Origin: Pandoraea iniqua
GTDB lineage: Bacteria; Pseudomonadota; Gammaproteobacteria; Burkholderiales; Burkholderiaceae
Assembly: GCF_902459685.1 (NCBI RefSeq)
Contig: NZ_CABPSF010000002.1
Coordinates: 806,001 to 870,000, forward strand
Length of the DNA stretch: 64,000 bases
Direction of reading: 5' to 3'
Made by a program: the position numbers and the translations under genes. The notes under the pieces were generated by a model. It saw only the letters and a list, made by a program, of their open reading frames with translations. It was not told where the DNA came from and did not search any database. This document shows, one piece after another, positions 42,657 through 46,441 of the stretch (within the stretch, counting starts at the first letter, position 1; each line of letters opens with the position of its first letter).

Positions 42657-43841
42657 TTAAAAAAGCGGCATCTGTGGGTTGACTGTCCCGTTTGGGTTGT
42701 CGGCCGTTGCCGGATCGGTTTGCCGTGAGCGACCTTGTCTCATCGCGGTGCCGTTGGCGGTGCCACCGGGCACCTCAGGAAGATCCGGCACCTTGAAGTG
42801 GTCGTTGCGAAGCGGCGGGCGCGCCTGATTTAGGCCGAGTTTGCGGGCTGCCAGAAGAAAGCGCTGCCGGATGAGTTCGGCGTGCAGCCCGGTCCCCCGC
42901 ATGCGCGTGCCGAACTCGGCACTGTTGTGTTTGCCGTCACGCACCTGCTCGATCAGGCTCATCACGTGACGCGCGCGCATCGGATAGTTCACCTCCAGCC
43001 ATTCGACGAAGACGTCGTGCACCTCGCGCGGCAAGCGCAGCATGGTGTACCCGGCGTAGGTGGCCCCGGCCTCGGCGGCCGTCGTCAATACCCGCTCGAT
43101 ATCGAAATCGGTCAGCGCCGGCACGATCGGCGCGACGATCACCCCCGTGGGGATGCCGGCCTGCGTGAGCTTATGAATGGCTTCGATGCGTTTCGGTGGC
43201 GTGTTGGCCCGCGGCTCCATCTTGCGGGCGATGTCGGCGTCGAGCGTTCCCACTGAAATGAATACGCGCGCGAGCCCGCGTTGCGCCATGCGCGACAGGA
43301 TGTCGATGTCGCGCGTCACCAGTGCCGATTTCGTCGTGATGCCCACCGGGTGCCCGAAACGTTCCAGCACTTCGAGCACGCTGCGCGTGATGCGGTACTC
43401 GCGTTCGATCGGCTGATACGGATCGGTGTTCGCGCCCAGCGCCAGCAACGCCGGTTGATAACCCCGCTTGCGCAATTCGGCGTCAAGCCGCTCAGCGGCG
43501 TTGGTCTTGGCATACAGCCGCGTTTCGAAGTCGAGTCCGGGCGAGAGCCCGAGATAGGCGTGAGTCGGCCGCGCGAAACAGTATGTGCAGCCGTGCTCGC
43601 AGCCGCGATACGGATTGATGGAGCGATCGAAAGGGATGTCGGAGGATGTGTTCCGAGAAATGATCGTTCGGGCCGTCTCAAGCGCAACCTGCGTAACGAA
43701 TTTGACCTCGGTTTCGTGGGCCATGTCCGATTCATGGCGGGTCTCGTCCACTTCTCGCCGGAACTCGGAAAAGCGCGATTCCAAGTTGGCAACAGCGCCT
43801 CGGCCTCGGCGGGCCGGGGGCGGCGCGAATGAAGAAGCCAT
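42657..43841 (-). CDS. PA0069-family radical SAM protein
   Basis: A 394-residue protein related to the SplB group. Cys81, Cys85 and Cys88 (GCEHGCTYCFA) should bind the 4Fe-4S cluster that cleaves SAM. The N-terminal RRGRGAVANLESRF and the segment RSINPYRGCEHG are hallmarks of the PA0069 family. Later conserved parts are LALGANTDPYQPIEREYRIT, VGITTKSALVTRDIDIL and ANTPPKRIEAI. Spore-photoproduct-lyase-like repair has been proposed for relatives but is not established. A LexA operator lies 66 bp upstream and overlaps a TATAAT on its strand, supporting an SOS link. Confidence 0.9.
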   Translation of the reverse strand: MASSFAPPPARRGRGAVANLESRFSEFRREVDETRHESDMAHETEVKFVTQVALETARTIISRNTSSDIPFDRSINPYRGCEHGCTYCFARPTHAYLGLSPGLDFETRLYAKTNAAERLDAELRKRGYQPALLALGANTDPYQPIEREYRITRSVLEVLERFGHPVGITTKSALVTRDIDILSRMAQRGLARVFISVGTLDADIARKMEPRANTPPKRIEAIHKLTQAGIPTGVIVAPIVPALTDFDIERVLTTAAEAGATYAGYTMLRLPREVHDVFVEWLEVNYPMRARHVMSLIEQVRDGKHNSAEFGTRMRGTGLHAELIRQRFLLAARKLGLNQARPPLRNDHFKVPDLPEVPGGTANGTAMRQGRSRQTDPATADNPNGTVNPQMPLF

Positions 43842-43906
43842 GGCCAGTCTCCTTGCTTGCAGTCCGGATTCCGGTTGACGGAAATCCTTAGGGAATGCTT
43901 GTCATT

Positions 43907-43928
43907 ATACTGTGTTTTTATACAGTAT
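43907..43928. promoter_or_regulatory. LexA operator (SOS box)
   Basis: CTGT (43910-43913), 8 bp, ACAG (43922-43925), extended to perfectly symmetric 7-bp arms ATACTGT / ACAGTAT. It is a near-consensus SOS box. On the minus strand TATAAT (43904-43909) abuts it, and on the plus strand TTGTCA (43899-43904) lies 16 bp before TACAGT. The operator therefore can control the radical SAM gene, a plus-strand transcript, or both. Confidence 0.88.
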
Positions 43929-43945
43929 TTGGCAAGGAGAGAACG

Positions 43946-44014
43946 ATGACCGACAACGACTATGGCGGAAGACTTTTGGCCGCGTGGACTGGCGCGTGGG
44001 CCAGTTGGGCGGTG
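43946..44014 (+). other. Orphan SOS-controlled start: remnant or small coding start
   Basis: Eighteen bases after the LexA box, AAGGAGAG and ATG form an excellent translation start. It reads MTDNDYGGRLLAAWTGAWAS with further Trp-rich residues and then runs antisense into the DUF2520 gene, staying open for 745 codons because of GC-biased third positions. I do not recognise the start. In relatives such a box often precedes DNA-repair genes such as imuA. A deletion that left only the promoter and start is the simplest explanation. Confidence 0.4.
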
Positions 44015-44947
44015 CTATGGGGCGTCTTTGGGGGCGACCGGCGGCACGTAGGGGGCGACGGCGCGGGCGATGGCGTCGAGCGCGGCGTTGTCCGCGTTAG
44101 GGCGCTGCCGCGCGAGCCCGATCGCACGCAACGTCAGCAACGAATACAGCGTGGCGTGATTGCCGCCCATATTGGCGAGCGCCTCGGTGTGACGCGTCAC
44201 GATCCCGGCGTCGCCCCGCGAGACGGGCCCGGCAAGAGCGCCCGAAAGCCCGCGCTCGCGGGCGGCATTGAGGGTGCCCATGACAAGCGGCCACATGGCT
44301 TCTTTGGCGTCGTTTTCCGGCATGCCGATGGCTCGCCACAGCACTGTCGCTTCTTCCAGCAGGCAGAGCAGGAAGCTCGCGGCGTAGTTGGCCCCCGCGT
44401 GATATCGCATGCGTTCGCCGGCCGGAATTTCCAACGGGCGGCAGCCAATGGCTTCGGCCAGCGTTCGCAGGGTCGTCGCGAGTGCGGGTTCGGCTTCGAT
44501 GGTGATGGCGCTGCCGGCCATGCGCGTGGCGTCGTCGGCGAGCCCGGCAAAAAGGAAGAGCGGATGAAAGCCGCCGATTTGCGCGCCGTGTTTCGCTGCG
44601 GGGCGCAGCAGCTCGACTTCCGAGGCACCGCTGCAATGCACGAGCGCTTGGGTGTCGGCGGGCGAGAGATGCGCCGCGCAGGACGCAAGCGCGTCATCCG
44701 GCACCGTCAGGAAAACGAGATCCGCATGATCGAACACCGCATTCGCACCACGTGCGTCATCGGCAGCGACGACGTTGCATTGCGGAAACTGGGCGGCGAG
44801 GGCTTGCGCGGTCGCTGGGCTTCGGCTGGCGATAGCGGTCACTTCGTATCCCGCATGCGCCGCCGCGACCGACAAAGCTCTCGCGACGCGGCCAGCGCCG
44901 ATGAAGCCCAGCGTCGGCCGTCGATTATTCGGGAGGAGGGGGCTCAC
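44015..44947 (-). CDS. Rossmann-like / DUF2520 oxidoreductase-like protein
   Basis: A 310-residue protein: an N-terminal NAD(P)-binding fold (LGFIGAGRVARALSVAAAHA near 12-31) and a C-terminal DUF2520 helical domain (RYHAGANYAASFLLCLLEEA; TLNAARERGLSGALAGPVSR). The resemblance is to pyrroline-5-carboxylate reductase and ketopantoate reductase types; the substrate is unknown. It is the last gene of a three-gene minus-strand operon, and its 3' end meets the orphan LexA-controlled start. Confidence 0.85.
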   Translation of the reverse strand: MSPLLPNNRRPTLGFIGAGRVARALSVAAAHAGYEVTAIASRSPATAQALAAQFPQCNVVAADDARGANAVFDHADLVFLTVPDDALASCAAHLSPADTQALVHCSGASEVELLRPAAKHGAQIGGFHPLFLFAGLADDATRMAGSAITIEAEPALATTLRTLAEAIGCRPLEIPAGERMRYHAGANYAASFLLCLLEEATVLWRAIGMPENDAKEAMWPLVMGTLNAARERGLSGALAGPVSRGDAGIVTRHTEALANMGGNHATLYSLLTLRAIGLARQRPNADNAALDAIARAVAPYVPPVAPKDAP

Positions 44948-44974
44948 AGTGCTGACACGCCGAAAGGGATGCAG

Positions 44975-45424
44975 TTACTGCGACAGGCGGTTGGGTGTGT
45001 CGTGCGTCTCGAAGTACGTCTGAAACGCGACGGCAAAACCCACCATCATCAGCATGGCGCCAACGAAGAGCGACACGCTCACGATGATGACGGCCGTCCA
45101 GCCCGAACGCGAGCGGTTCGTCGCCCCCGGGTTGAACTGCTGGTCCCAGCGCTCGTCGGGGCGAAGTCCGTAGACGATGGCCGTGAGAAACGCCGAGAAC
45201 AGCGAGATCGCCCCCAGAATCGTCAGCACCCAGCCCGCGGTCGAACTGAGATCGCTCGTCACCAACAAACCCCACCCTGCCACGCCGCACGCCGAGCCCA
45301 CGATGTGCGCCCAGCCGAACGGGTCGCGCAGGCCATACAGATAGAAGCGGTGCAGGCCGAGTGTGCCGAACAGCATCGCCAGTCCGGCGGTCAGGGTTTT
45401 AGATTTATGGGTGAGAGCGTTCAT
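44975..45424 (-). CDS. TM2-domain-like membrane protein
   Basis: A 149-residue protein with four predicted membrane helices. The N-terminal segment AMLFGTLGLHRFYLYGLRDP matches the TM2 pattern (G-x-x-G-x-H-R-F-Y), followed by WAHIVGSACGVAGWGLLV. The C-terminal helix is SGWTAVIIVSVSLFVGAMLM. The function of the family is unknown. It lies 27 bp before DUF2520 and 9 bp after the META lipoprotein, in one operon. Confidence 0.82.
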   Translation of the reverse strand: MNALTHKSKTLTAGLAMLFGTLGLHRFYLYGLRDPFGWAHIVGSACGVAGWGLLVTSDLSSTAGWVLTILGAISLFSAFLTAIVYGLRPDERWDQQFNPGATNRSRSGWTAVIIVSVSLFVGAMLMMVGFAVAFQTYFETHDTPNRLSQ

Positions 45425-45433
45425 CAGGGACGG

Positions 45434-46249
45434 TTATCGGGTGGGCGTTTGACGAATGACTTCGACCAGCGTCCAGCGCATGCTCGAAGCGTCGGCGGGC
45501 GGATTGTCGACAGGCTCGCCGTGAATTTTCACGCGGTATTCTACGCCGGGCTTCCAGTCGAAGCCATCGATGTGCGCATACCAGAGTTCCCACGGGGCTT
45601 TGCCGGAGTCATCGGCCGTGCGCACGCGCAGGCACTTGCGAGGCCCAACGCCGACACAGTCTGCCATTTGCGAGTCGACATCGAGTACGCGATCTTCCGT
45701 CTTGGCGGCACCGGTGGCCCCGGCGACCGGGCGATTGAGCAAGGTCTGCGACGCATAGGTCAGCGTCTCGCCGCCCGGAGCGCTCAGGATCAGTTGGGTG
45801 TCGCGACGTTCGAAGCGTGCGACGCGCGGCAGCGTCTTCAGGTAGCGGTCTTCAAACGCCATCGAGTCCGGGCAGGCCATGCGTGTCGATGCGGGGGCTT
45901 TCAGGCTCACCTGTCCGTTGGCCGGGCCGACCGTGTACTGGCCGAAAATGCGATTACAGCCGCCAGTACCGGAGAACGCGCCCTTGTCGTTGAATGTGAG
46001 ATTGATCACGCGGCCTTCCGGCAGGCTCGGGATGTCGTCGGCGCCTTCCCAACGCACCAACTGCCAGGTGCCGAGGATATCGGCCGGTGTCGTCGCGGCT
46101 GCCGCAGCGTTGCTGTTGCCGGACGCCGATGAGGTGGCGCCGCCGCCGGACGGCGCGGCACAGCCCGCCAGCATGGCTGCGGGCACGAGCAACATGGCGA
46201 GATACGAGGCAAACGAGGAGGGCAGGAAGGAGGGTAGGCGTTGGGTCAT
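45434..46249 (-). CDS. META-domain (plus DUF4377-like) lipoprotein
   Basis: The ATG at 46249 gives 271 residues with a lipoprotein signal peptide ending in AAMLAGC (Cys30). A META/HslJ domain follows (ILGTWQLVRWEGADDIPSLP, GTGGCNRIFGQYTVG), and the C-terminal part (CLRVRTADDSGKAPWELWYA, IDGFDWKPGVEYRVKIH) matches DUF4377. Upstream in-frame codons are not conserved-looking. It is expected to be anchored in the envelope, with a possible stress role as for HslJ. First gene of the operon. Confidence 0.85.
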   Translation of the reverse strand: MTQRLPSFLPSSFASYLAMLLVPAAMLAGCAAPSGGGATSSASGNSNAAAAATTPADILGTWQLVRWEGADDIPSLPEGRVINLTFNDKGAFSGTGGCNRIFGQYTVGPANGQVSLKAPASTRMACPDSMAFEDRYLKTLPRVARFERRDTQLILSAPGGETLTYASQTLLNRPVAGATGAAKTEDRVLDVDSQMADCVGVGPRKCLRVRTADDSGKAPWELWYAHIDGFDWKPGVEYRVKIHGEPVDNPPADASSMRWTLVEVIRQTPTR

Positions 46250-46441
46250 GATCTTGAATGGGCGGAGTGAGGGAGAGGGCAGGGACGGCGCAAGCGTCGC
46301 GCGGGGCAGATGAGACGCCCGGGCGGTGCCGTGAATACCATGGGATGTTGACAGATAGTGGTCGAGGTCAGTTCCTTCCCTGACCGGGACGCGTTGATCG
46401 CGCATGAGCGTCAAACGATGTCGATGCGTCATCGCAGCCCC

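Follow-up and report, generated by a model that had tools for sequence, protein, structure and literature searches.

The window analysed here, 64,000 nucleotides of Pandoraea iniqua DNA, comes from a genome of 6.34 Mb in 17 contigs (G000) and contains a LexA-type operator with a gene or reading frame on either side (Table 1). Leftward lies a gene whose product matches the PA0069 radical SAM family model above its cut-off. Rightward, a ribosome-binding site and an ATG open a long frame that is antisense to three genes encoding a Rossmann-like/DUF2520 protein, a TM2-like protein and a META/DUF4377 lipoprotein-like protein, and that ends near the start of the last of these. The longest open reading frame of the META gene spans 45434-46432, and the start at 46249 is the one suggested by the lipobox. 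The elements named in the original prediction are all present: the box with its symmetric 7-bp arms, the TTGTCA (43899-43904), AAGGAG and ATG of the plus strand with a frame running antisense into DUF2520, and the TATAAT that adjoins the box on the other strand, followed by PA0069. The view that the start codon is orphaned does not hold, as this ATG opens a conserved frame of 687–821 codons in 25 of the 28 genomes of the genus that bear the region.

Table 1. Features of the operator, the antisense frame and the surrounding genes, in window positions.
Feature	Position	Strand	Basis and remarks
Gene of a PA0069 family radical SAM protein, leftward of the operator	42657-43841	-	NF033668, 491 bits (cut-off 360)
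TTGTCA-16-TACAGT, promoter-like, spans the box; putative promoter of a rightward transcript	43899-43926	+	9/12 matches
TATAAT, -10-like hexamer for PA0069, adjoins the box	43904-43909	-	Sequence; conserved in most relatives compared
LexA-type operator, extended palindrome ATACTGT-N8-ACAGTAT	43907-43928	.	Core 43910-43925; sequence, kept in relatives
Shine-Dalgarno AAGGAG	43934-43939	+	6 nt upstream of ATG (43946)
Antisense reading frame, 728 codons + TGA	43946-46132	+	Kept open in 25 genomes
Unique N-terminal part, outside the DUF2520 overlap	43946-44014	+	23 codons, Trp-rich
Rossmann-like/DUF2520 gene, fully overlapped	44015-44947	-	PF10728, PF10727 above cut-off; 0 TTA/CTA/TCA in 25 genomes
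TM2-like gene, fully overlapped	44975-45424	-	PF05154 at 24.5 bits, just under cut-off 27.9; 0 TTA/CTA/TCA in 25 genomes
META/DUF4377 lipoprotein-like gene, overlapped to about its start	45434-46249	-	PF14302, PF03724 above cut-off
TAGAAT, promoter-like word, perhaps the TM2-DUF2520 promoter	45538-45543	-	In synonymously conserved patch, META end; word likewise kept in G010, G014 and G028

The core of the operator is CTGTGTTTTTATACAG, and the symmetry of its arms extends over 7 bp. As a bare consensus, the box is no scarcer than expected by chance, being found twice in the window against 0.59 expected, a count reached by 11 of 100 shuffles, and at 41 places in the whole genome against 43 for a reversed-pattern control. 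What raises this box above chance is that it is kept in place among relatives, and that AT-rich sites of the same class lie upstream of lexA (two boxes), recA, uvrA, dinB and imuA in the same genome. We searched 32 genomes of the genus, four of which (G017, G023, G025 and G030) gave no match in a search with the DUF2520 protein, and found the region in 28. The box stands at the same place in 26 of these: 25 combine it with a ribosome-binding site and start codon, one (G028) has it without such a start, and two (G010 and G014) lack it.

Spanning the box is the sole promoter-like match for a rightward transcript between 43700 and 46700, where shuffled sequences lead one to expect 0.4; its TTGTCA element is only partly conserved among relatives. 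RNA folding of the leader revealed nothing (z 0.62). An operator of the organism's own LexA type appears to lie at a promoter, and it is very probable that the locus is LexA-controlled, presumably by LexA repression and SOS induction.

Several other sites of this kind came to light. In the same genome, a 16-mer identical to the window box precedes the gene of a DUF3224 protein (L047, G000:C2:739000-742000), and a box CTGTGGTTTTATACAG precedes that of a 174-aa protein with a DUF2471 match (L054, G000:C7:305500-308500). An 81-codon GTG-started frame with a short Shine-Dalgarno match and without a Pfam match begins 48 nt past an AT-rich LexA-type box (L049, G000:C3:1032000-1035000, 1664-1906 on the plus strand), and is a candidate small SOS gene. 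The palindrome CTGTCAACGTTGACAG, present in six exact and two near copies (e.g. C7:139865-154358), matches the bare LexA pattern, yet looks like a different element. Outside Pandoraea, the extended operator occurs in a few genomes (genus g20 and others), and none of the 16 reference proteins of the region was found at the seven loci checked; at L110 (genus g20, 1501-2168) it precedes a 2OG-Fe(II) oxygenase superfamily gene.

The antisense frame has the signals of a gene in all 25 genomes that carry it. Its start codon (24 ATG and one GTG) lies 16–23 nt past the box, and in 24 genomes it is preceded at 4–7 nt by a Shine-Dalgarno match of at least four letters, the exception being G004, where the match is weak. 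Such start signals resemble those of an ordinary gene, and it had been suggested that an SOS gene (imuA-, sulA- or lexA-like) was deleted between the box and DUF2520, leaving its control region behind. However, none of the 25 genomes has an ordinary gene at this place, and lexA and imuA are found elsewhere in G000 behind boxes of their own; we reject this explanation, to which we attach next to no probability. The original prediction had also named what would speak against it, namely the same layout without an inserted gene in all relatives. This is literally what we find, but the layout itself contains the frame.

The distance from the start codon to the DUF2520 stop codon takes 11 distinct values in the 25 genomes (69, 81, 84, 87, 96, 105, 114, 120, 123, 135 and 225 nt), all of them multiples of three, so that the frame is always in codon register with DUF2520. 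Parsimony requires at least 10 length changes, and the chance that all of them would keep the frame is about 2e-5. Register with TM2 and META is likewise kept in every one of the 25. The 3' end, on the other hand, is variable, lying between 237 nt ahead of the META start and 105 nt beyond it, with seven genomes sharing an end at -12. As a consequence of the register, stop codons within the overlapped genes can arise only from TTA, CTA or TCA codons of those genes.

These three codons are absent from both fully overlapped genes, with 0 in 7559 codons of DUF2520 and 0 in 3725 codons of TM2 across the 25 genomes. They occur at 0.3–10.4 per 1000 codons in 12 neighbouring genes, a set from which the badly aligned row PQQ46442 (22 genomes, mean identity 57%, 3010 codons, 40.9 per 1000) was left out, and at 6.9 per 1000 in the partly overlapped META, which is reported separately. 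A general shortage of A-ending codons is not the reason, since among fourfold codons other than CTA and TCA those ending in A make up 10.6% in DUF2520 and 9.3% in TM2, as against 0 of 1003 and 0 of 646 for CTA and TCA together.

The obvious objection is that codon bias by itself leaves antisense in-register frames open in G+C-rich genes, which would make this one an artefact. TTA, CTA and TCA are indeed rare in G000; rplS is almost devoid of them (1 in 3188 codons), and certain neighbours are also low. Beyond the 12 neighbouring genes, we examined a second set, of 29 genes from about 40 kb in 20 genomes, to which a gene was admitted when at least 15 of the 20 had an orthologue. DUF2520 and TM2 alone among the 29 are without any column holding a stop-making codon. 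None of their 464 columns has one, although 20.6 would be expected (P about 7e-10 if columns are independent); the 26 other genes, with META left out, have 416 in 9353 columns. In META, CTA and TCA account for 0 of 459 in the overlapped columns 105–304 and 48 of 462 before them; as the cut at column 105 was chosen post hoc, our main statistic uses DUF2520 and TM2 only. Nor does codon bias explain the distances in multiples of three, or the decay of the frame in the two genomes described below, and the finding that would favour it, a relative that keeps the box and has stops in the frame, was made in none of the 25. We reject the codon-bias explanation, which now seems very improbable. The selection detected on the frame goes beyond codon bias, and we are highly confident that the frame is maintained by selection; for all its accidental look, these patterns in the sequence suggest that it is probably translated and used.

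The two genomes without the box, G010 and G014, are a natural knock-out, in which the box has been lost and the frame has decayed. They are sister species nested among the 25 (G003 and G013 join them at a node with a support of 0.969), and in both the left half of the box is gone together with PA0069, other DNA standing there instead. What remains of the N-terminal frame is out of register and holds two TGA codons, the details differing between the two genomes. The DUF2520 gene itself is still open, and in each genome two sites in it carry stop-making codons; TM2 has none. Counting the first as shared, this pair gained three stops on a branch length of 0.10 (four if it was not shared); the tree of the 25 has a branch length of 2.27 and not one gain, a contrast with a probability of about 7e-5 by chance. 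The remaining genome, G028, has the box and PA0069; its gap between TM2 and META is 7 nt instead of 9 nt, which breaks the register, and TM2 holds one TCA. Its aligned DUF2520 stretch is free of stop-making codons, even though the start of the frame is absent. The link of PA0069 with the box is probably older than the frame.

Not all sequence conservation in the overlap can be attributed to the frame. A patch covering 45536-45544 and the META/TM2 junction is synonymously conserved, and we considered a conserved antisense domain at the end of META and start of TM2. The patch is kept about as well in G010 and G014, and partly in G028, which lack the frame, so this idea was rejected; because it also holds a promoter-like word, we do not count the patch as evidence for the frame. 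As judged from its sequence, it is likely to be an internal promoter of TM2-DUF2520.

If the frame is translated, does its product matter? The N-terminal part that precedes the DUF2520 overlap looks as if it is under selection. Over 815 codons from the 25 genomes it contains no stops, as compared with 65 and 13 in the other two plus-strand frames, and tryptophan makes up 11.2% of its codons, against 5.0% and 2.2%. Directly before the DUF2520 stop, W-x2-W-x2-W-x2-(L/S) is found in 10 of the 25, with W at all three of positions -10, -7 and -4, and 19 have W at two or more of them. In five groups that comprise 19 of the 25 genomes, pooled pN is 0.229 and pS 0.387, a weak signal with a ratio of about 0.59 and with one group above 1. 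In P. nosoerga (G016; L040, 1764-1845) the unique part has been enlarged by 9-bp tandem repeats, that is, by whole codons.

Past this point, constraint on the amino acids of the frame is not seen in the comparison of fourfold sites over ten pairs: the difference is 0.255 for DUF2520, and the overlapped stretches of META and TM2 give 0.286 and 0.198, with 0.239 (0.170–0.290) in nine control genes. The predicted product is rich in arginine (13–16%), has a pI of 9.4–11.3, and matches nothing in Pfam or NCBIfam. An AlphaFold2 model built with 25 sequences has a mean pLDDT of 28.1 without a single residue at 70, and thus no fold, its best pieces being a helix at residues 5–28 and a partial helix at 456–479. 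Taken together, the absence of extra amino-acid constraint and of a fold makes it seem that unbroken translation itself has been selected; these features and the variable C-terminal end are what would be expected if translation is kept and the product is not.

One alternative is that the frame encodes a trans-acting SOS protein, with a Trp-rich, membrane-seeking N-terminal helix and a long, very basic, mostly disordered tail. The tryptophan enrichment and pattern, the pooled pN below pS, the modelled helix and the basic composition are all in keeping with such a protein, while the control-like change of fourfold sites in all three overlapped genes, the lack of a family match and of confident structure, the unconserved C-terminal end and the one group with pN above pS speak against it. 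We consider it possible, if on the doubtful side. Another is that only a short peptide matters, the rest being accidental read-through. TisB and SidA are SOS-induced small membrane peptides, and the locus resembles them in its LexA-type box, good ribosome-binding site, and short, hydrophobic, Trp-rich N-terminus, the part that looks selected. However, no stop follows the hydrophobic part in any of the 25 genomes, and the avoidance of stops extends for hundreds of codons further, so we regard this as a quite unlikely explanation. The earlier suggestion of a short unknown SOS product or an antisense RNA came close in naming a product or antisense RNA and erred as to length, since the frame extends over three genes, with selection keeping it open.

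A frame kept in register and open in 25 genomes, and decayed where the operator was lost, is in our view best explained by a mechanism in cis, in which an SOS-induced antisense mRNA would be kept alive by ribosomes; we would put the chances of this at just under even. The operator would act as a two-way LexA switch, its leftward side serving PA0069. When DNA damage removes LexA, the promoter across the box would fire rightward, giving a transcript that starts at the box, with a leader that is short and a ribosome-binding site that is good. Ribosomes would load at once. They would then translate some 690–820 codons without a stop, antisense through DUF2520, TM2 and META and ending close to where META begins, and in doing so keep Rho from ending the RNA. 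The resulting long, armoured antisense mRNA would oppose the META-TM2-DUF2520 operon in cis, by collision or RNA pairing, and the Trp-rich N-terminal helix may additionally bring the nascent chain to the membrane.

Rho ends untranslated RNA and restrains antisense transcription, as outlined in PMC5540618; a stop codon would thus cost the antisense transcript its length. A role in cis would explain the intolerance of stops and frameshifts alongside the freedom of the overlapped amino acids to change. Several observations count against the cis mechanism: the rightward promoter match is of modest quality, with a TTGTCA that relatives keep only in part; a purely cis role would not lead one to expect the tryptophan pattern or the N-terminal pooled pN/pS below 1; and G028 lacks such a start, yet its DUF2520 stretch is free of stop-making codons. 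Our fuller reading, offered tentatively and held at rather less than even confidence, is that the locus produces an antisense mRNA under SOS control, in which the essential thing about the coding sequence is that it lacks a stop, so that ribosomes shield the RNA against Rho over the span of an opposing three-gene operon, and that the synonymous codons of three ordinary genes have been edited to keep the frame open, the frame decaying upon loss of the operator.

The leftward gene raises a question of its own, the original prediction having proposed an SOS link for the PA0069 family. Rv2578c, a member of this family, may belong to the SOS regulon of M. tuberculosis. Among 16 genomes of the bacterial family searched, 15 had a match to PA0069, and in 13 of these a perfect CTGT-N8-ACAG lies upstream of the gene (it is absent in G023 and G054). 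G010 and G014 are among the genomes with a box, although their gene stands elsewhere: both have a more distant homologue, 60–63% identical and with a perfect LexA-type box of its own (L168, L169), which shares a contig with DUF2520 at a distance of some 22 kb, as if it were a replacement for the lost copy. In a class-wide sample, a box was found at 3 of 30 loci including that of the window, that is, at 2 of 29 others, with upstream DNA shortened at two loci. On sequence grounds the proposed link is supported for the bacterial family, where it places a poorly understood group of radical SAM proteins beside LexA-type boxes in most genomes examined; across the class it is mostly absent, and we reject it at that level. 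Our search of the open-access literature found no paper that deals with this frame, with a LexA regulon in Pandoraea, or with a part of PA0069/Rv2578c in the SOS response.

Antisense overlapping genes and excludons are already known. The olg1 and olg2 genes of Pseudomonas aeruginosa are long antisense overlapping genes. Others are pop, antisense to ompA in E. coli O157:H7, as outlined in PMC7103648, and three more presented in PMC9927249. The Pandoraea frame resembles these in being a long frame opposite an annotated gene with a promoter-like site and Shine-Dalgarno sequence of its own, and differs in having a LexA-type operator, in spanning three genes instead of one, and in its upkeep across 25 genomes, its natural knock-out and the lack of amino-acid constraint in the overlap, all of this read from genomes. 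In the excludon, as set out in PMC7154746, a long mRNA doubles as antisense RNA to its neighbour. The cis mechanism would work alike, and the anatomy of the locus appears to fit; however, the sense part of the Pandoraea transcript codes for nothing recognizable, and its coding part is the antisense part itself. What is new is the combination of a LexA-type operator, a three-gene span, upkeep of the frame across species with a natural knock-out, and avoidance of stops separated from freedom of amino acids. We know of no regulation of the kind proposed here, by a stop-free SOS antisense mRNA.

Codon bias is the usual reason for dismissing long antisense frames in G+C-rich bacteria as artefacts. 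At the Pandoraea locus this explanation can be tested and fails, as the register, the avoidance of stops and the decay in the knock-out all point to use. If our interpretation is confirmed, annotated operons would bear a hidden constraint imposed by an SOS transcript from the opposite strand, and the locus would provide an inducible system in which to ask what the translation of antisense RNAs serves, the making of a product or the survival of the RNA itself.
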